The notes below the pieces were generated by a model. It saw only the letters and a list, made by a program, of their open reading frames with translations, was not told the origin of the DNA and did not search any database. From Mesotoga sp. BH458_6_3_2_1 (GTDB taxonomy: Bacteria; Thermotogota; Thermotogae; Petrotogales; Kosmotogaceae), in the NCBI RefSeq assembly GCF_003664995.1, contig NZ_JFHL01000021.1, forward strand, positions 62,001 through 126,000: a stretch of DNA of 64,000 nt. The letters are read 5' to 3'. Positions 4,212-63,766 of the stretch are shown here, piece by piece (within the stretch, counting starts at the first letter, position 1; every line of letters begins with the position of its first letter). The translations under genes were made by a program, and so were the position numbers.

Positions 4212-4907
4212 TTATGGAACAAGATCTCTGATCTTCCCGTCGTCTTTCATCTTTCTGGCGAGATAGATGAACGGTGTGTCTAGAACGGCAACGACCCATT
4301 TCAGAATATAAGTGGACCAGAATATCTGCCACCAGACACCTGCCGAAAAGACTCCCGCAAAGGCTATGACAGTGAAGACAGCCGTATCTATCAATTGCGA
4401 GATCATTGTACTCGCGTTGTTCCTTATCCAGATGTGCCGTTTCTCGGGGAACCTCTTCTTCCAGAAGTCGTATGCCCAGACGTCGTGCAGCTGAGAACAC
4501 CAGTATGCGGCAAGGCTCGCAAGAGCTATACGGGGAAGGAGACCAAATGCCACAGAAAGGTGTTCTTGAGAAAAGTCCGAAGGGTGGGGCTCGAAGGCGA
4601 GCGCAATCTGCATTATCACCGTAACGGATATTAGAGAGAAGAATCCGATATAGACCGCCTTCCTGGCCTCTTTCTTTCCGTGGTTTTCCGATAGGATGTC
4701 TGTAGCGAGAAAAGAGGTCGCATATACGATATTCCCGAGCGTGGCGGCCATCCAGAAGAGAGAGACTGTCTTTATAACCTGAACGTTAGCTATTATCGCG
4801 GCAATAGCTACCCATACGTAAAGGCCCGTCTTTCCCCACCATCTGTATGCTATGGTAATCAAAGCGAAGTTCACTACCAGCATCACAAACCAGAGAATCT
4901 CATTCAT
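4212..4907 (-). CDS. yhhQ: YhhQ-like queuosine-precursor transporter (VUT family)
   Basis: A 231-residue integral membrane protein with about six hydrophobic segments. Family features are the segment around FLATDILSENHGKKEARKAVYIG and the later NNASTMISQLIDTAVFTVIAF. The family imports preQ0 or related 7-deazaguanine queuosine precursors (YhhQ/QueT2-type role). AAGGAGATAT precedes the ATG. No queuosine biosynthesis gene adjoins it and no preQ1 riboswitch was recognised upstream. Substrate assignment is therefore by family only. Confidence 0.88.
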   Translation of the reverse strand: MNEILWFVMLVVNFALITIAYRWWGKTGLYVWVAIAAIIANVQVIKTVSLFWMAATLGNIVYATSFLATDILSENHGKKEARKAVYIGFFSLISVTVIMQIALAFEPHPSDFSQEHLSVAFGLLPRIALASLAAYWCSQLHDVWAYDFWKKRFPEKRHIWIRNNASTMISQLIDTAVFTVIAFAGVFSAGVWWQIFWSTYILKWVVAVLDTPFIYLARKMKDDGKIRDLVP

Positions 4908-5177
4908 CTATATCTCCTTCTTCATATGATCTTGGAAACTTAGAAGTTCCCTTTCGCATTTTATCGTATAAAAGCCCTTCAAACCACTCCTGGATGTTTC
5001 GTTTGATCTCATATGGAATTGCATCTGATAATAGAAGAAAAAAGCACAATTAGAAGCGGAAAGAGGTCACTGCAACTAGGCCGGACGGGGCGTCAAGAAA
5101 ACACCGTTACCATGAGAATTTCGCGCTTTCCTGTATATTCCTGCTTACAGTCTATACGGAGCTTTGGGATGAGCAGT

Positions 5178-52276: not shown

Positions 52277-53779
52277 GTGAACGATCTTAAGCTGTTCTTC
52301 AAATATAAGTTGTTCATGTTCCCTGGCAAGAAAGGAACCAGAGGTGGCGTTTCAAGTCAACTATTCGTATTTGCAATTTTCACGGTCATGATAGGTTTCT
52401 TTCTTTGGGAAGTTTATGGTGCAACTGCTGGAGTGGAAGTAGAGGGAATTGCCCTTGGAAAAGTTATGGCTGGTTTTTTTCTCACAATTTCCGGACTGTT
52501 CTTTCTTATATCCTTCTCGGCCACATCATCGTATCTCTTCATGAGAAACGAAGAGATAGATATGCTTCTGGTTCTCCCCGTAAAAAGAGTCAGTATAATT
52601 GCTTACCAAATTATGATTTCGACGGTATATCAAGGCCTCACATTGTCAGTATTCCTTGGAATAGCTCTTCCTTATCATCTAAGGATCGATCCTAATCCAT
52701 GGATAGGGATACCTTCACTTGTATTGGTAGTAATCAACACTGTTCTCCTTGCCTCAATAGTTTCCGTGGCTTTCGGAAAGTTTATGTCCAGGGCTGCTGC
52801 TAGAAAAGTGATGTTTATCGTGCAAATTGTAGCAGGGTTCATGTTCTTCATAATTGTACAGTTGGTCCCGAGGAACACAGATAATATCCCTCTCTATTTG
52901 CAGAAGCTTGCCGCTGCCTGGGAAACTCTCTCAAATCCCGTGAACATATTTACATGGAGCGTCAAGGCATCTGAGCAGCCAATGTACTTTCTGTTTGCCA
53001 TTGGTGCGATCCCACTTTTGGGACTTCTGTTCTTCAAAGTCGCCTCATCTATGAGATTCGAGCCAGTTTCGTACACTAAGAGCAGATCAAGAACTTTCTC
53101 CTTTTCCGAAAGACGAGGAGGCGTCCTACTGAGGAGAGAACTGAAGATATACAGGCGTTATGAGCAGTTGATCTATTATCTCCTATATCCCGTTGTGTTT
53201 GGCTTGATTTTCGGTCTTATATCAGATGATGTCGTGACTTCAATCTTCACCATGGTGCTAATCAGTACAATATTCACTACAATACAGTCGGCATTTCTTA
53301 TGGGCAGAGAGTTCCCATTTATCGAAACAACGAAGATGCTTCCGATCTCTCTAGGCAAAATGATTGCTTTGAAAGCATCCCTGCCTGTACTGTTGGGAAC
53401 TGTTCTTTTTGTGGGAGTTCTCATCACCAGTGTCTTAGTGAGAGGTGGATCCCTCAGTTACCTTGTGGTTGTACCAATTGTATTCATACTGTACGTGACA
53501 TCTTCATTGCTTGGCATAAGGGGTGTTTTGAAGTCACCGCCAGATCAGATGGACAATCCGAACGCGTTTATGAGAACGAAGTTTGTACTTCTCAATCAGG
53601 TTATTTGTATGGCTTTGAGTTTTGGCGCAATAATGCCTCTGACAATGATTCTAAGTGGTTCTGTAGAGGGTATCGGGACAGTCTTGATGCTGCTGATCTC
53701 GCTTGCATCAGTGACAATCGCTCTCTTTGTATCTCTCTTCAACTACAGGAAAATCTCACGGACGATCAAGAGCATTTAG
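52277..53779 (+). CDS. ABC transporter permease, ABC-2 type exporter
   Basis: A 500-residue membrane protein with about 12 hydrophobic segments, partner of the ATPase just upstream. The start chosen is GTG 52277, seven bases after GAGGTG; a frame from 52256 overlaps the ATPase by 11 bases. Cytoplasmic basic loops (TKSRSRTFSFSERRGG) separate two sets of segments. Such large two-set permeases resemble the 16-segment putative ABC exporters of Firmicutes and Thermotogota. Substrate unknown. Its 3' end overlaps the convergent sensor gene by four bases. Confidence 0.88.
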   Translation: MNDLKLFFKYKLFMFPGKKGTRGGVSSQLFVFAIFTVMIGFFLWEVYGATAGVEVEGIALGKVMAGFFLTISGLFFLISFSATSSYLFMRNEEIDMLLVLPVKRVSIIAYQIMISTVYQGLTLSVFLGIALPYHLRIDPNPWIGIPSLVLVVINTVLLASIVSVAFGKFMSRAAARKVMFIVQIVAGFMFFIIVQLVPRNTDNIPLYLQKLAAAWETLSNPVNIFTWSVKASEQPMYFLFAIGAIPLLGLLFFKVASSMRFEPVSYTKSRSRTFSFSERRGGVLLRRELKIYRRYEQLIYYLLYPVVFGLIFGLISDDVVTSIFTMVLISTIFTTIQSAFLMGREFPFIETTKMLPISLGKMIALKASLPVLLGTVLFVGVLITSVLVRGGSLSYLVVVPIVFILYVTSSLLGIRGVLKSPPDQMDNPNAFMRTKFVLLNQVICMALSFGAIMPLTMILSGSVEGIGTVLMLLISLASVTIALFVSLFNYRKISRTIKSI

Positions 53780-56670
53780 GCTGAGGTATTGCTTATCAAT
53801 ATCTTGAACATTGAGACTAGTTCCGGGTCGAACTGAGTTCCGGAACATCGGCTTATTTCCTCAATAGCTTTCTGTACACTTCTGGCTTGACTATACGGCC
53901 TTTCATTTGTCATTGCATCGAAGGCATCGACGATCGATAGAATTCTACATTCAACCGGAATTTCTTCACCCTTGATACCCAGAGGATAACCTCTTCCGTC
54001 CCATCTTTCGTGATGTCTCAAAATCAAATCTGCAACTGATGAGAGATCTGGAGACGATACTGCAATTCTGTATCCTTTCTCAGGATGGAGTTTCATTACC
54101 TTCCATTCATCTTCGGATAACGGGCCGGGCTTAAAAAGAATGCTGTCAGGAATTCCCACCTTACCGAGATCGTGTACCTGAGCAAACAATGCAAGATCGC
54201 TGAGCTGTCGAGTACTGAGACCGGCCCTTTTACCAAGCTCCAAACAAAGTTTCTGAAGCCTTTTGGCATGACCACCTGAAATCTGATCCTTTTCATCCAG
54301 AGTTATCAACAGTGTGTTAACCATTTGGCTCCTAACGCTGGAGCTCCTGTAAAGCTTGTCACGGTACATAAGGTCATCAGCCAACTTTAGAGTCTCAAGA
54401 AGGTTTTGTTCTGGACCCTTGCTTGTGGCTATCCCCATCGATACACTCAAGTGAGGGCCGACGTGATCCATATTGTATTTTTCAACTGTCTTACGGACTC
54501 TTGAAGCGATCTTCTCAGTCGTCTCTTCATCCGTCCTAATTAGAATGACTGCAAATTCGTCTCCACCAAATCTCGAGACAACATCTGTCTTTCTGAAGGA
54601 TGACCTAAGAATCTGTGAAAACTCTATGAGTATTTGATCTCCCCTTGAATGACCCATTGTGTCGTTTATCAGTTTCAATCCGTCTACATCGGCCGATACA
54701 ATTGAGATAGGATAGAATCTCGACCCTTCCAGTCTCTGAAGCTCCTCCTCAAAATAGACTCTGTTGTATAGATCGGTCAGTTTATCGTGAAGAGACATAT
54801 AATTCATACGTATTTCCGTCTCGATTCGAACTATCGCTTCACGAGCATGAGACATGAGAAGCTCTGCAAGATGTAGTTCTTGTTCGCCAAATTTCGACCT
54901 ATCTGAGGACATCGCCTGGAAAACCCCAAAATCACCAACTGGAACGCTCAGGCCAGCGTGATAAAGACTGTTGGTCTTCAAAGCATTGGGAGACTCCTGG
55001 ATATCATCGATTATGTACGGCTTCTTCTCTCTGAAAGTCTTCCCGACAATTCCGACATCATTTGGCATTACAAGTGGATCCCGTGGATTCAGATTGGAAG
55101 ATGCTTTAATTACTAGATTATCCTCTTCGTTGACACAGATGAAGCATATATCAAATTCAAGGATCTCCTTAGCTGCTTCAATCACAGAGTCATATACATC
55201 TTGGAGGGTTCCACATCTTTCCAGATTGAGAGCTGCATCGTGAAGCCGTTCTATTCTGAACCTATCTCTCTTCAGAATCTCCAGACTTCTCATTCGTTCA
55301 GATATATCTCGTGCAAAAGTAAATTCATATTCACTTTCATCGTACTTGAAATAGTTTCTGTTAACCTCGACGGGAAAGACAGAGCCGTCCTTTCTCACAT
55401 GATAAGCTTCAAATGTGTCCCTACCTTTTGATTTAAGCCTTTCCCAGCTTACCCTTCTATCCATTGCCTCCATCGATTTATCGAGATCATTTACCTTAAG
55501 TCCGGAAACCTCAGCCTTTGTGTATCCGAGATTTTTACAGGCCGCGCTGTTTGCATACAGTATCGTGCCGTCAGGAGCAATCCAGAAGGCCTCATCGTTC
55601 GCATTATCCAGTCCGAACTGAATAAGCTTGATCCTCCTAAGTGCCTCTCTCTCTTCGGTCACATCATTTGCAGAACAGACAACAGACTCAATACTTCCGA
55701 ATTCATCGATATCCGGCGTCTTTGTGATCTCCAGAATTCTTAACTCCCCATTCGAATTCTCTGAATTCTGCTCAAAAGTAAGCTTCACTTTTCGAGAGAA
55801 AACCTCTTTGTTGCTTTCAACACATTTTTTCGCTTCCTCTTCCGAGAGAATCCTATAGACATTCTTTCCTTCAATCTCCTTCGGCATCCTACCAAGAAAC
55901 TCTGCAAATGACTTATTGACGATTCCGAAAGTCTCCGGATCTCTGAAATACCAGATCAGTGTCGGAATCTTATCCAGAAGCAGCGACATTTCTCTGTTCC
56001 TTCTGACGAGAAACTTCTTGCCTGCCACCCGCTGTATAGTAGCCGTGAAGATGAGTGTCAAAAGAAAGACGAAAGCGATTGCAGCATAGTTTGCTGGTAG
56101 CCATCTGCGCTCGAGAGAAACCAAGATTTCCGCTAATACAGGACTCCCCTTCTCATTGCCCAAGTTGTATCCTTCTCTTGTAAGCAGACCCATAATTCCC
56201 TCGAGATCTAGTTCCATAATTACATACGCATTCTTTGGCCTCTCTGAACCAGCGTTGTTCGTAATGGCAGAAATCGCAAAGAGGTCCTTGCCTACTGAGA
56301 AGATTCCTGAGTAGTCTCCTCCTTCAAAAGCAGGCATGTCGGCAATTTCAAACTTTTCACCTGCAGTTGCAAAAACCGCATTTTCATAGAATACCGCTAC
56401 ACCTTTCATAAGCATATTGCTGCTCATTATCTCTCTTAGATAATTGTTGATGAAGTCACTGTCATTCTTCATAACGGCTTCATAAAATGAATCCCGATGA
56501 AAGTAGCCGATGAATGTGGTCTCTGCAGCGTTTTCCGCGATCATTCTTGCAGACTTGGCAATTTGACTTTCTACTTCAGAATACCTAACTTCTGTCACCG
56601 CAAAACCTATAATGGCCCAGAAAAGCGTTGCTAGCGCAGCCAAAGAGATAGATTTAAGCCAATTCTTCAT
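53776..56670 (-). CDS. Membrane PAS-GAF-GGDEF-HD-GYP cyclic-di-GMP signalling protein
   Basis: A 964-residue sensor with both synthesis and breakdown domains for cyclic di-GMP. Order: N-terminal membrane segment (ISLAALATLFWAIIGF), extracytoplasmic sensor domain to about 195, second membrane segment, two PAS domains (about 225-335 and 345-460), GAF (about 480-620), GGDEF with intact FGGDEFA and an I-site RKTD five residues before it, then HD-GYP with VHDLGKVG, HHERWDGRGYP. Both enzyme parts look active, so net activity depends on signals. AGGAG precedes the ATG. It stands alone. Confidence 0.95.
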   Translation of the reverse strand: MKNWLKSISLAALATLFWAIIGFAVTEVRYSEVESQIAKSARMIAENAAETTFIGYFHRDSFYEAVMKNDSDFINNYLREIMSSNMLMKGVAVFYENAVFATAGEKFEIADMPAFEGGDYSGIFSVGKDLFAISAITNNAGSERPKNAYVIMELDLEGIMGLLTREGYNLGNEKGSPVLAEILVSLERRWLPANYAAIAFVFLLTLIFTATIQRVAGKKFLVRRNREMSLLLDKIPTLIWYFRDPETFGIVNKSFAEFLGRMPKEIEGKNVYRILSEEEAKKCVESNKEVFSRKVKLTFEQNSENSNGELRILEITKTPDIDEFGSIESVVCSANDVTEEREALRRIKLIQFGLDNANDEAFWIAPDGTILYANSAACKNLGYTKAEVSGLKVNDLDKSMEAMDRRVSWERLKSKGRDTFEAYHVRKDGSVFPVEVNRNYFKYDESEYEFTFARDISERMRSLEILKRDRFRIERLHDAALNLERCGTLQDVYDSVIEAAKEILEFDICFICVNEEDNLVIKASSNLNPRDPLVMPNDVGIVGKTFREKKPYIIDDIQESPNALKTNSLYHAGLSVPVGDFGVFQAMSSDRSKFGEQELHLAELLMSHAREAIVRIETEIRMNYMSLHDKLTDLYNRVYFEEELQRLEGSRFYPISIVSADVDGLKLINDTMGHSRGDQILIEFSQILRSSFRKTDVVSRFGGDEFAVILIRTDEETTEKIASRVRKTVEKYNMDHVGPHLSVSMGIATSKGPEQNLLETLKLADDLMYRDKLYRSSSVRSQMVNTLLITLDEKDQISGGHAKRLQKLCLELGKRAGLSTRQLSDLALFAQVHDLGKVGIPDSILFKPGPLSEDEWKVMKLHPEKGYRIAVSSPDLSSVADLILRHHERWDGRGYPLGIKGEEIPVECRILSIVDAFDAMTNERPYSQARSVQKAIEEISRCSGTQFDPELVSMFKILISNTSA

Positions 56671-57870: not shown

Positions 57871-58084
57871 GCACCAGGAGGCAAAAAGGAAAGAAGAAGA
57901 GCAAGCAAATTAAAGTAATCTGATCAGACGGACTCATTTTGTCACTGAAGCGCTCCTGTTAAGGATCTGGGCTTCGAGAAACCGGGGTAGCGGGTGCGGA
58001 TTGGTGTTAGGAAAAAGCAAAGGAACTGGTTGGTCGTTGAATGGTTCTCCGTTCGCCGACGAGAGCCGTCAAGTAATAGTATCG

Positions 58085-58117
58085 AGATTCCGACCAGGAG
58101 CTTTGTCGGAATGACGG
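58085..58117. repeat. Composite dispersed repeat, short copy
   Basis: GATTCCGACCAGGAGCTTTG followed by TCGGAATGACGGAATT matches the first third of the unit at 39041-39152 almost exactly. The inverted arms ATTCCGAC and GTCGGAAT can form a hairpin. Confidence 0.75.
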
Positions 58118-58214
58118 AATTGGGCGTATTCGGAATAACCGTTCTTAGTCAAACCATTATTCAGAGAGTAGAGAGAAGGGAAAAGCAAAGAGGGCAGGTA
58201 AGGTTCCGCGATAA

Positions 58215-58311
58215 GATTTCGACCAGGAGCTTTGTCGGACTGACAGCATTTGACGTTTCTTGACTTCAGCGCTTTCAACCTGCAACTGCTCTTCATGAAG
58301 GACCGAGGACG
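58215..58311. repeat. Composite dispersed repeat, diverged full copy
   Basis: It aligns with 39041-39152 through GACCAGGAGCTTTGTCGGA, GCATTTGACGTTTCTT and CTGCAACTGCTCTTCAT, with small indels. Copy 58085 lies 130 bases upstream. Confidence 0.65.
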
Positions 58312-58394: not shown

Positions 58395-59183
58395 TCAAAG
58401 AACCTTCAAGATCATCCCGCCAACTATTGCAATCATCACGCTCGCCAGCGTCCCGATTAGATAGTATTCAGCAAAGTCTTTGTTCTCGAAATTCTTAAAT
58501 CTGGCCAATGATTTGGCGGCTATTACAATTGTTATAGAGGCAACATTTCCCGTGAGGTATAGTGTGAGAATGAGAAGCCTTTCGAAGATCCCGATCACCT
58601 TCCCGGTCTTCACATTATCGAGAACCGAGCTGTCTCCTGCTATTCTCTGAAGATAGTCCGGCACATTCTTGTAGATGAGATCGAAGAGTTTTCTTATGAA
58701 GACCGCGCCGGCAAAGAGTACATATATATAGACAATTATTACCACTAGAATTCTTTGAAGCGGAAGCGACGGTAGGTCAAGCCCCGTATGTATGGAAAAC
58801 CAGCCAATGAAGCTTGAGAAGCCCCGTGAAACGGTGAAGCTGGAAATCGGTAAGAGGAAAGAGATGAGCACAAGATGCATGAATTGATCAAGAACAAACA
58901 TGATGAACTTCGTTGCCGGACCTCGCTCTCTCTCGATCTGAGCTTTGAATACATCTATAAGTATATGAAAGAGGGAAAGCACAAGGCAATACATAAGCAC
59001 ATCGGTCAGCTTGAAGGGGAGCATAAGAACCAGAAGAGTTCCAAACACAACGCACCAGTGTTTCAGAAATCCTTTCATCTTACCATTGTTCTTTTCGTTC
59101 ACCATCGCGTCTGTCTGAAACAAGAAATCGGCAACTACATGTGCCAGAATCGAAAGCGCTAAAGGTATCACTAATCCTCTCAT
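58395..59183 (-). CDS. DUF3307 membrane protein
   Basis: A 262-residue integral membrane protein with about six to seven hydrophobic segments. The N-terminal half fits DUF3307: LSILAHVVADFLFQTDAMVNEKNN, LKHWCVVFG and SLFHILIDVFKAQIERE, where histidines and aspartates recur within membrane segments and may bind metal. GGAGGCC precedes the ATG. It lies 129 bases downstream of the SatD gene, separated by a run of TAAGGC-type repeats. Function unknown. Confidence 0.85.
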   Translation of the reverse strand: MRGLVIPLALSILAHVVADFLFQTDAMVNEKNNGKMKGFLKHWCVVFGTLLVLMLPFKLTDVLMYCLVLSLFHILIDVFKAQIERERGPATKFIMFVLDQFMHLVLISFLLPISSFTVSRGFSSFIGWFSIHTGLDLPSLPLQRILVVIIVYIYVLFAGAVFIRKLFDLIYKNVPDYLQRIAGDSSVLDNVKTGKVIGIFERLLILTLYLTGNVASITIVIAAKSLARFKNFENKDFAEYYLIGTLASVMIAIVGGMILKVL

Positions 59184-59240: not shown

Positions 59241-59307
59241 ATAAGGTCTTAATGCCTTATTCAGCTTAAATAAGTTTAAAAAGCCTTATTTTATAAATAT
59301 AAGGCTT
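59241..59307 (-). promoter_or_regulatory. Cluster of ATAAGGC/GCCTTAT sites and hairpin between satD and the DUF3307 gene
   Basis: Four related half-sites occur in 65 bases: ATAAGG (59241-59246), GCCTTAT (59254-59260), GCCTTAT (59283-59289) and ATAAGGC (59299-59305). The last two form a perfect inverted repeat AAGCCTTAT/ATAAGGCTT (59281-59289 / 59299-59307), which on the minus strand is followed by TTTTTAAAC. It could end satD transcription, regulate the DUF3307 gene, or both. Confidence 0.5.
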
Positions 59308-59312
59308 AAAAA

Positions 59313-59936
59313 CTAATTCCCAAGCGACAAATCGATCAACTTTGCCAACCCCGTTTCGGCAGCTCTTACCACACTCCAGCTTGCCTTTTCACAGTGTTCC
59401 TGAACAGTCGGAGCTGTCACTCCCAGAACCTTAGCCGCCTTTTCGTAGGTCCCCTCGGCCTCATACGTATGAACGGCTTCCCATTGTTTTTCAGTCCAAC
59501 CCCTCTCAACAGTCTCAAGCAAAAATAAAGAGGTGTTCATGGCAATTGACAGTACCTCGTTATCATGAACGAAAAAAGTATTTGAAATCTTACTCTGTTT
59601 CGCACTATCAAGTGCCGTTCTCGCATCGTAGAAGACTATGCCACTTAAATCCCAAGAAGAACCGGCATTCTCCAGCTCTTTCTTATCAATTTCACCAATA
59701 CTCAATCCAATTCTTAGCCTGAAGGGTCGCACAATGTATCTCAACCTTCGAACAAGTATCGGTAGGGCACCCACCTCAGACAATACACCCTGAATCTCAT
59801 CTCCTCTAGATATGGCAAATGGCTTTGCGAGATACTCTGAGCCAAAACCATCAATCGAATTCCGAATACTTGCCACCGGAATCTCTTGCTTCCTTGATTG
59901 GATGATATCGGCGGTAATTATCGCATAAAGACCCAT
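59313..59936 (-). CDS. SatD-family protein: cyclase-like N-terminal domain plus helix-turn-helix
   Basis: A 207-residue SatD-family protein (name from the Streptococcus mutans sat locus). The N-terminal 115 residues have a pattern like nucleotidyl-cyclase/GGDEF palm domains: Asp10 in YAIITADIIQSR, SRGDEIQGVL (D46, E47), RLRIGLSIGEID, and GIVFYDARTALDSA. The C-terminal part holds a helix-turn-helix, GTYEKAAKVLGVTAPTVQEH. The start chosen is ATG 59936; a GTG at 59945 overlaps the ribosome site. The DUF3307 gene follows. The cyclase reading is an inference. Confidence 0.82.
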   Translation of the reverse strand: MGLYAIITADIIQSRKQEIPVASIRNSIDGFGSEYLAKPFAISRGDEIQGVLSEVGALPILVRRLRYIVRPFRLRIGLSIGEIDKKELENAGSSWDLSGIVFYDARTALDSAKQSKISNTFFVHDNEVLSIAMNTSLFLLETVERGWTEKQWEAVHTYEAEGTYEKAAKVLGVTAPTVQEHCEKASWSVVRAAETGLAKLIDLSLGN

Positions 59937-60262
59937 ACAGCTCACACTCCGTAAACAGCAGAGTCACCCCAAACTGATTGTAGCACAGATCATGTTGAGA
60001 CCATAAAGTGACGGAAATCAAATGCCGCTCCAGTCTTTACGAGATACCCACTCATCGATGTGGAGATCTATACGACATCCTCGATAGGAGGGTCGTCTAT
60101 TCAGAGGTCTTTGAAGGCCTGTTACTCAATACGAAAACTCGTGATGGAAATTCAAACAAAAGCCCATTGAAGAAGACGGGAAAACTCCCGAATACGCTGC
60201 ATCTTAGCCGAACAAAAGCTGCACTGCCCGTTATCTTCAGGAATTCAAATACTGACAGTCAG
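59937..60262. other. Intergenic region upstream of satD
   Basis: No gene is well supported in these 326 bases. A small hairpin CGGGA-AAAC-TCCCG lies at 60177-60190 and may help end the minus-strand gene that finishes at 60263. A plus-strand frame of 122 codons from 60008 runs into that gene and has no ribosome site or recognisable features. Confidence 0.4.
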
Positions 60263-62056: not shown

Positions 62057-63766
62057 CTAGGTCGGCACAAACCCAGAATTGAAGAGCTCAAGACAGGCTT
62101 TCACCACTTCTTCATCATACTTCGTACCAACTCCCGACTTAATCTCTTCGAGGGCAATCTCGAGTCCCAGTGCACGTCTGTAAGGACGATGAGAGCTGAC
62201 GGCCTCGACAACATCTGCAACTGCAAGAATTCTCGCTTCAAGCATTATTTCGCCATCTTTCAGACCTCTCGGATAACCGGATCCATCGATTCTCTCGTGA
62301 TGCTGCCTGACTATTTCTGCAACGGGCAGACCGAAATGGATCTCCTTCAGGATTTTGAAGCCTTCGTCGGGATGATTCTTGATCAACGCCCATTCAATCT
62401 CGTTAAGCCTTCCGGGTTTGTTAAGTATATCTGCAGGGATGGAAAGCTTCCCTATGTCATGGAGAATAGACGCTATTCTGAGTGCTTCAAGCTTTTCGTT
62501 GGGGAGTTTGAGTCGCTCAGCAATCGCTGTCGCTATTTCTTCGACCTTTCTCTGATGATCAACCGTGTAGGGATCCTTAACCTTTAGAAGCCTGGACATT
62601 GTTAGCAGAAGATCATCTCTGCTTCTTCTGAGGGCTTCTTCGGTCTCTTTCAACTTTGTAATGTCTCGACCGATACCCACTAGACCCGTAACTAAACCCT
62701 CTTCATCGAATATCGGCGACAGATTAATACTATAGTGTTTCTGGTTGACGTCTTCGCCAAAGCTCCACTCATATGTTGTCTGTTCTCCACTGAGAGCTAT
62801 CTCGCTGTTCATCATATGTACTTCTGCTATCCCTTCAGGAAATATTTCGGCTGCGGTCTTGCCGATGAAGAAATCTGTATTGACTTCTGAACTCTCTATC
62901 CAGGCTCCAAAAATAGCAGTAAGCCTGCTCTCTCGATCCAGTTCAAAGATTATGTCGTCCGTAGACTCCACAATCGCCCTAAACTTCTCTTCCCGCTCTC
63001 TCAGTCTCGAATAGATCTCGCGTTCTCTTGTCTTGTCTTACGCCAGATCCACTACTCCCAATAGATTTCCGGAATCATCGAAGATCGGGTATGCCTTGAT
63101 GTGCCAGATGATTCCGTTCTGCTCGATCTCTTCAACAACTGTCTTCTTTTCCCTGACGGCCTTCAATACAGGACAATCGTCGCAAGGATTCTGCCTTCCG
63201 TACCAAAGGTGATAACACGTGTTGCCCTGCAAACTATCCTTGTCTACCGCCACCCTCTCTCTGAATGCTTTGTTCGCCCAGACAATACTAAGATCGGGCT
63301 TATGATACGCAACTATCTCATCGATATTGTCCAGAATGAGCTGAAGAGTCTGTTCAGATTCAATAATCCTTCTCCTGGCTTTCTTCTGCTCAGTTACGTC
63401 GATTCCAACCGACTGGTATTCAATCAGCTTCCCGGCAGTGTCATGAACAGGCTGGTTGTACCAGTGAATCCAGTGCACAGCTCCATCGGCAGCCAATACG
63501 GGATCTTCCCTTTGGAAAGGATGCTCGACTTCCGCCCTTTTGTGAAGCGTCTTCTCGAGTTCATTGCATGGGCCTTTTTCGGCAAGATCGATCCATTGCT
63601 TTCCGAGAAGTTGATCCCTTTCCATACCGTAGAATTCAGCATATGCGCGATTGACGAAAGTTAGCGTTGTGTCAGAGTTCCACCTGCAGATGAGCAGATC
63701 TGGATTGTCCGCAATAGACTCATAGAGTAAGCTGTAATGTTTGCCAATCAAGTCTCGCTTCTCCAC
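62057..63766 (-). pseudogene. PAS-PAS-PAS-HD-GYP sensor interrupted by an in-frame TAA
   Basis: One reading frame of about 570 codons is split by a single TAA at 63038-63040. The upstream part (GTG 63766, AAGGAG seven bases before) has two PAS domains, the second with the cysteine motif NPCDDCPVL, and breaks off at GVVDLA. The same frame continues as DKTREREIYSRL, then a third PAS and an HD-GYP domain with LHDIGKLSIP and HHERIDGSGYP. Restart at GTG 62971, behind AGGG, could still make a PAS-HD-GYP protein. It may be a recent nonsense mutation, a sequencing error or two polypeptides. Confidence 0.85.

Follow-up and report, generated by a model that had tools for sequence, protein, structure and literature searches.

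Among the described systems closest to SatD are the PucR/CdaR regulators, such as BAD_0249 (PDB 3onq) and MabR (Rv2242), in which, as in SatD, a GGDEF-like palm domain precedes a helix-turn-helix (HTH). They form dimers and tetramers, as SatD may do, and they are the top Foldseek matches of SatD. The palm of these regulators can lack the GGDEF motif, as in MabR, where the GGDEF-like domain has HGTWL (PMC11617747), whereas in SatD the GDE turn and D10 are both invariant. The class III cyclases, the GGDEF proteins and Cas10 have in common with SatD the palm and an acidic pair, one position in strand 1 and the other in the turn that joins strands 2 and 3; SatD differs from them in having an attached HTH, no detectable sequence homology and only a candidate activity. 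With regard to the Streptococcus mutans sat locus and the Pfam families SatD and DUF3307, the two proteins analyzed here are family members by the curated cut-offs. In the literature found, satD is linked to nothing beyond acid tolerance or essentiality, and, subscription papers aside, there is no account of the SatD fold, the operator array or the pairing with DUF3307. Autoregulators that combine tandem operators with a nucleotide-fold sensor are known; the combination found here looks like a new form of them.

The stretch of DNA analyzed, 64,000 nucleotides from Mesotoga sp. BH458_6_3_2_1 (hereafter, the window), contains the pair in the following arrangement; other satD loci are denoted by L numbers.

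59977-59982, minus strand: putative -10 box of the satD-DUF3307 operon, TACAAT in TGTGCTACAAT
59313-59936, minus strand: satD, 207 aa from the ATG at 59936
SatD parts, in residues: palm, 1 to about 125-140; linker helix, 127-145; HTH, 149-184; C-terminal helix, 187-205
58395-59183, minus strand: DUF3307 membrane protein gene, 262 aa, Pfam DUF3307 (PF11750)

The ATG at 59936 was used as the satD start; the list of open reading frames begins the gene at a GTG at 59945. SatD belongs to the Pfam family SatD (PF16264; 32.2 bits against a curated cut-off of 29), which was matched by all 26 aligned SatD homologues, and the DUF3307 protein reaches 74.6 bits for PF11750, against a cut-off of 23. No NCBIfam model matched either protein of the window. 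The two genes lie on the minus strand, 129 bp apart. The TACAAT at 59977-59982 may be part of the promoter of the operon; it is absent from the listing of the consensus promoter scan, and the same TGTGCTACAATCAGTTTGG recurs upstream of satD in L006 and L007. The pair occurs in Thermotogota, Bacillota, Fusobacteriota, one alphaproteobacterium and one haloarchaeon. Adjacency of satD and the DUF3307 gene was found in 9 of the 9 relatives that have satD, in practically every locus that could be read in the genome scan and, in both gene orders, in 30 of 33 more distant loci. The pair with precisely spaced repeated sites, described below, appears to be shared by bacteria and one archaeon at least.

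The AlphaFold2 model of SatD, built with 26 homologues, has a pLDDT of 94.3 and a pTM of 0.89. The order of elements in residues 2-123 of the model is strand, helix, strand, strand, helix, strand, helix, helix, strand, and the three HTH helices lie at residues 149-161, 164-171 and 175-184, in agreement with the HTH that had been proposed at about residues 155-185. Foldseek ranked 3onq, a regulator in which a GGDEF-like domain is joined to an HTH, first among its PDB matches; class III cyclases, GGDEF proteins and Cas10 came next. In VIA-align, the Z-scores were 10.3 for Cmr2, 9.4 for the diguanylate cyclase SiaD, 9.2 for adenylyl cyclases and 8.8 for GTP cyclohydrolase III; Z-scores of 9-10 to several palm families span 110-128 residues of SatD. 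The palm families tie in Z, so that the comparison supports the fold class and singles out no family. The N-terminal domain of SatD is accordingly predicted to be a nucleotidyl-cyclase palm of the class III cyclase/GGDEF/Cas10 type (beta-alpha-beta-beta-alpha-beta). The earlier note had suggested a cyclase or GGDEF palm, and on this point the model, Foldseek and VIA-align agree, with no unrelated fold emerging.

The palm assignment rests on the predicted structure, because sequence profiles give no link to GGDEF proteins. Homology between SatD and GGDEF proteins at the sequence level is unsupported (hhalign E 0.078), and Pfam GGDEF matched none of the 26 SatDs. Likewise, neither the PucR HTH (PF13556) nor the GGDEF-like PF17853 was among the Pfam matches of these 26 proteins. 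SatD profile A1 retrieved no solved structures, and the structures retrieved with profile A5 were aligned mainly over the HTH regions and in none over the palm. SatD is accordingly not placed among the GGDEF diguanylate cyclases, for which the full GG[D/E]EF motif and a family-level sequence match are required.

Palm cyclases carry metal-binding acids at two places, where strand 1 ends and where strand 2 turns into strand 3. In the SatD model, these places are taken by D10 and by G45-D46-E47, respectively. In 22 diverse SatDs (18-51% identity to the SatD of the window), spanning bacteria and a haloarchaeon, D10, S14, G45, D46, E47, Q49 and G99 are invariant. D10 and G45-D46-E47 are thus supported as the signature of a metal or nucleotide site. 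The turn motif reads RGDE[IL] in the clade of the window's SatD and LGDEF in distant SatDs. With respect to the class III cyclases, both acidic positions are invariant, and the activity itself is a candidate property. Of the motifs listed in the earlier note, Asp10, G45-D46-E47 and R75-x-GLSIGE were all found; the G, A, R, A and D residues of a late motif are also present, but the spacing at its beginning is G99-x5-A105, not G-x6-A.

In an alignment of 23 DUF3307 partners, H15, D19, H42, H73, D77, D99, Q100 and H103, located in the first four helices, are invariant or nearly so, and a C-terminal block, AAKSxAR...EYYLxGTLxS, is also conserved. The AlphaFold2 model of the protein (pLDDT 90) is all-helical. 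Compared with the PDB, it gave no clear fold match, the best Z being 7.2 for a designed helical protein; this missing match is no evidence of a new fold. The His/Asp set in the four helices suggests an intramembrane metal site. The L032 partner (4369-5142) is without H15, H42, D77 and D99 and keeps the C-terminal AAKS...EYYL block, so that the functions of the metal site and of the C-terminus may be separable. The DUF3307 protein of the window matches PHROG 2470 (membrane protein, host-takeover class) with an E of 1.4e-15. Thus, phages carry DUF3307 relatives, though a search for phage homologues of SatD found none.

Several of these features would also fit an enzymatic role, in which SatD is an active cyclase or synthetase, its product acts on the partner protein and the DNA sites described below merely set expression levels: the acidic positions of the palm and the GDE turn do not vary, unlike in the PucR/CdaR regulator MabR, where the GGDEF-like domain is devoid of the motifs (PMC11617747), the partner is conserved next door, and its His/Asp set suits a catalytic or metal site. 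We nevertheless regard this alternative as unlikely, given that no known cyclase base-recognition set can be assigned in SatD, that the HTH and the operators already account for the conserved pairing, and that neither protein matched a PADLOC anti-phage defence model.

The preferred reading, in which SatD acts as a transcription factor on its own operon, draws on repeated sites at the junction of the two genes:

59300-59316, minus strand: candidate operator copy 1, probably decayed, TTAGT TTTTAAG CCTTA, 17 bp, over the satD stop codon
59271-59288, minus strand: candidate operator copy 2, TAAGG CTTTTTAA ACTTA
59242-59259, minus strand: candidate operator copy 3, TAAGG CATTAAGA CCTTA
59281-59289 and 59299-59307, no strand: perfect 9-bp inverted repeat, AAGCCTTAT-9-ATAAGGCTT

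The repeat unit is an 18-bp palindrome with 5-bp arms and an 8-bp center, and its period is 29 bp. Copies 2 and 3 are exactly 29 bp apart, and copy 3 is kept in L008 and L010. Copy 1 is intact, with 18 bp, at the same place in L008; the version in the window is one base shorter and is probably a decayed operator. At zero mismatch, the pair of copies 2 and 3 occurs at a single place in the window's genome, and across the genus zero-mismatch pairs are confined to satD junctions. A single TAAGG-8-CCTTA palindrome was rejected as a genome-wide regulon marker, as it is not enriched (75 occurrences versus 164 of the reversed pattern).

The earlier note had described four ATAAGGC-type half-sites, all of which are present (59241-59247, 59254-59260, 59283-59289 and 59299-59305), two of them within the perfect inverted repeat. 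The repeat is real, and the sites occur far more often than expected by chance, but the register did not hold, the unit being one 18-bp palindrome per 29 bp. The inverted repeat consists of the facing halves of neighboring copies, namely, the right half of copy 1 and the left half of copy 2. As a rigid operator, this 9-bp repeat was rejected: bases are changed in the nearest relatives, L008 and L010, where the 29-bp register is kept, and in this comparison it is perfect in the window's genome only.

The same geometry recurs in other lineages. An unbiased scan of 68 loci, with palindrome lengths of 14-24 and spacings of 18-60, had its top cell at length 18 and spacing 29 (13 loci, versus a mean of 0.23 loci per cell), followed by length 20 and spacing 29 (11 loci, with the same centers as for length 18). 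Among palindrome pairs near satD in 65 loci, spacing 29 was found in 21 loci and spacing 28 in 10, versus 0-1 loci for each of the other spacings from 19 to 45; these locus counts are not independent, because many of the loci are related. A strict pair is missing in at least 34 of the 65 loci under the criteria of the spacing count; of the loci without one, L016, L017 and L028 have weaker pairs and L034 has a pair elsewhere.

The geometry is constant while the arm sequences vary in separate lineages: the arms are TCACC in Bacillota, TAAGG or TAAAC in Mesotoga and kin, TCAAT in L002, TCAAC in L035, TTAAC or TTAAG in operons in which the DUF3307 gene comes first, and TTCGC in the haloarchaeon L078, which has two such pairs before satD. 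Thus, of the conservation that had been expected of the sites in relatives, the array geometry at 28/29 bp was kept, while the ATAAGGC sequence itself varies. In the 20 genomes with satD that came from the genome scan, two TCACC palindromes at 29 bp, with up to 3 mismatches allowed, were present in 17, and nearly all of the places were at satD; a few pairs with 2-3 mismatches lie elsewhere, and the reversed-pattern control gave zero pairs in the same genomes. The 28/29-bp signature could be used for annotating SatD modules across genomes.

The predicted recognition helix of SatD (175-184) contains residue 181, which is a His in the Mesotoga/Kosmotogaceae clade as well as in L018 and L032; almost all remaining members of this SatD subfamily have Arg. 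Arm position 2 is A in 10 of 10 arm pairs of His181 proteins; the single site of L032, a His181 locus, reads TAACC. For the Arg181 proteins, with the distant TTA-type group excluded, C is found on both halves in 41 of 48 arm pairs and on one half in 6 of 48. L002, which is sister to the Mesotoga group, combines Arg181 with TCAAT. On the tree, residue 181 must have changed no fewer than two times, so that residue and arm position 2 changed together at least twice independently. This covariation is good evidence, though from a small sample, that the sites are read by SatD itself. Among distant SatDs, the rule fails, Arg occurring with TTAAC. Altogether, the computable features of a tandem-operator autoregulator are present, that is, repeated palindromes at its own operon and a specificity that covaries with the HTH.

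Repeats of this kind could also act in RNA, as terminator, attenuator or translation-control hairpins, rather than as DNA operators. The 9-bp repeat of the window, with a T-run after it, folds (z -2.1), the hairpins of L014 are strong (z -5.3), and GGTGA beside start codons resembles a Shine-Dalgarno sequence. However, for the perfect DNA palindromes of L011 the RNA stability equals that of shuffles (z -0.05), the arm mismatches include C/A, C/T and A/G without a bias towards G-U (G/T), and the Rfam search matched no family; therefore, DNA operators are favored. As the arms of one array are, in addition, alike in sequence and vary together with a residue of the HTH, we consider action in RNA very unlikely.

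The position of the array relative to the genes varies. In seven loci (L012, L020, L029, L033, L038, L039 and L042), it begins 51-55 bp before the satD start, and in many others, including the window, it is located at the satD/DUF3307 junction, extending into the satD coding sequence where the genes abut. In the operons L088, L097 and L098, in which DUF3307 is the first gene, the array lies upstream of it, and in L080 a TATAAT is found inside the repeats. Since the arrays overlie starts, promoters or the upstream region of the partner, repression is likelier than activation. In Halanaerobium, the array is located just downstream of DUF3307 (L034, 5384-5459; L044, 5248-5294) and would thus be unable to block initiation at the operon, which counts against the model.

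Taken together, we favor, with moderate confidence, the reading that SatD binds the sites cooperatively and regulates its own operon, and that the palm senses or makes a nucleotide. The fixed 29-bp period points to contacts between dimers on neighboring sites, because independent sites would tolerate other spacings; such contacts would in turn imply cooperative binding, local autoregulation and, presumably, a switch through the palm. The satD-DUF3307 pair would then be a self-regulated two-gene module, with SatD as a transcription factor that carries a cyclase-type palm as its ligand or metal domain before the HTH. SatD dimers would occupy the 18-bp palindromes, and neighboring dimers, 28 or 29 bp apart, would touch and bind cooperatively on two to three (rarely four) sites. 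At the junction in the window, bound SatD might block or limit transcription of the DUF3307 gene, and nucleotide binding or turnover in the palm could switch the array on or off. Local transcriptional control of this kind fits the data equally well as, or better than, the making of a nucleotide and a signal to the DUF3307 protein, as had been suggested before.

Two other readings share elements with this model. The first, which we consider improbable, sees in SatD a repressor that works like an antidote, by preventing the expression of a DUF3307 protein that would be harmful. In Streptococcus pyogenes, satD is reported to be the sole accessory gene (71% of genomes, absent from 29%) in the top quarter of essentiality (PMC11323703), the pattern expected of an antidote, and operators at the DUF3307 start fit; yet the essentiality in that study concerns satD, not its presumed DUF3307 neighbor (PMC11323703), and could result from polar or operon effects. 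The second, highly improbable in our estimate, would make SatD an active cyclase and its own DNA-bound regulator at the same time: assembly on the array would join the palms, and occupancy would control the synthesis of a nucleotide whose target is the DUF3307 protein, taken as a membrane metalloprotein.

Local autoregulation by SatD, our preferred model, gives the pair a testable mechanism, with the DNA bound, a specificity residue and a nucleotide site, and may explain how satD could be essential in a streptococcus and nevertheless an accessory gene. A cyclase palm with conserved metal-site residues next to an HTH also bears on the cyclase-fold origins of transcriptional sensors.

Some further features were observed at these loci. 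Downstream of the DUF3307 gene of the window (57990-58300) lies a dispersed repeat, with 59 whole or part matches across the genome at 75-100% identity, which accounts for spurious open reading frames such as TRSFVGLT and DKAPGRNL. In L005 and L018, short dispersed repeats (CGCCAAACTTTAGTTTGGC) have widened the satD-DUF3307 junction to about 800 bp, and no operator array was found at this expanded junction. L038 has a second array (4901-4947), 190 bp after DUF3307; next to it comes ATGAGAATAAC, just as it does at the start of satD, which suggests a remnant of a duplicated satD. In the Halanaerobium locus L044, a second pair (825-2882), DUF3307 followed by a 427-aa SatD-like protein, is found upstream of the satD, which is interrupted by a stop codon at about residue 136. 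Finally, the satD region of the window is flanked by genes for a GGDEF plus HD-GYP protein (53776-56670) and a PAS/HD-GYP protein (62057-62971), so that genes for cyclic-di-GMP turnover are located near satD.
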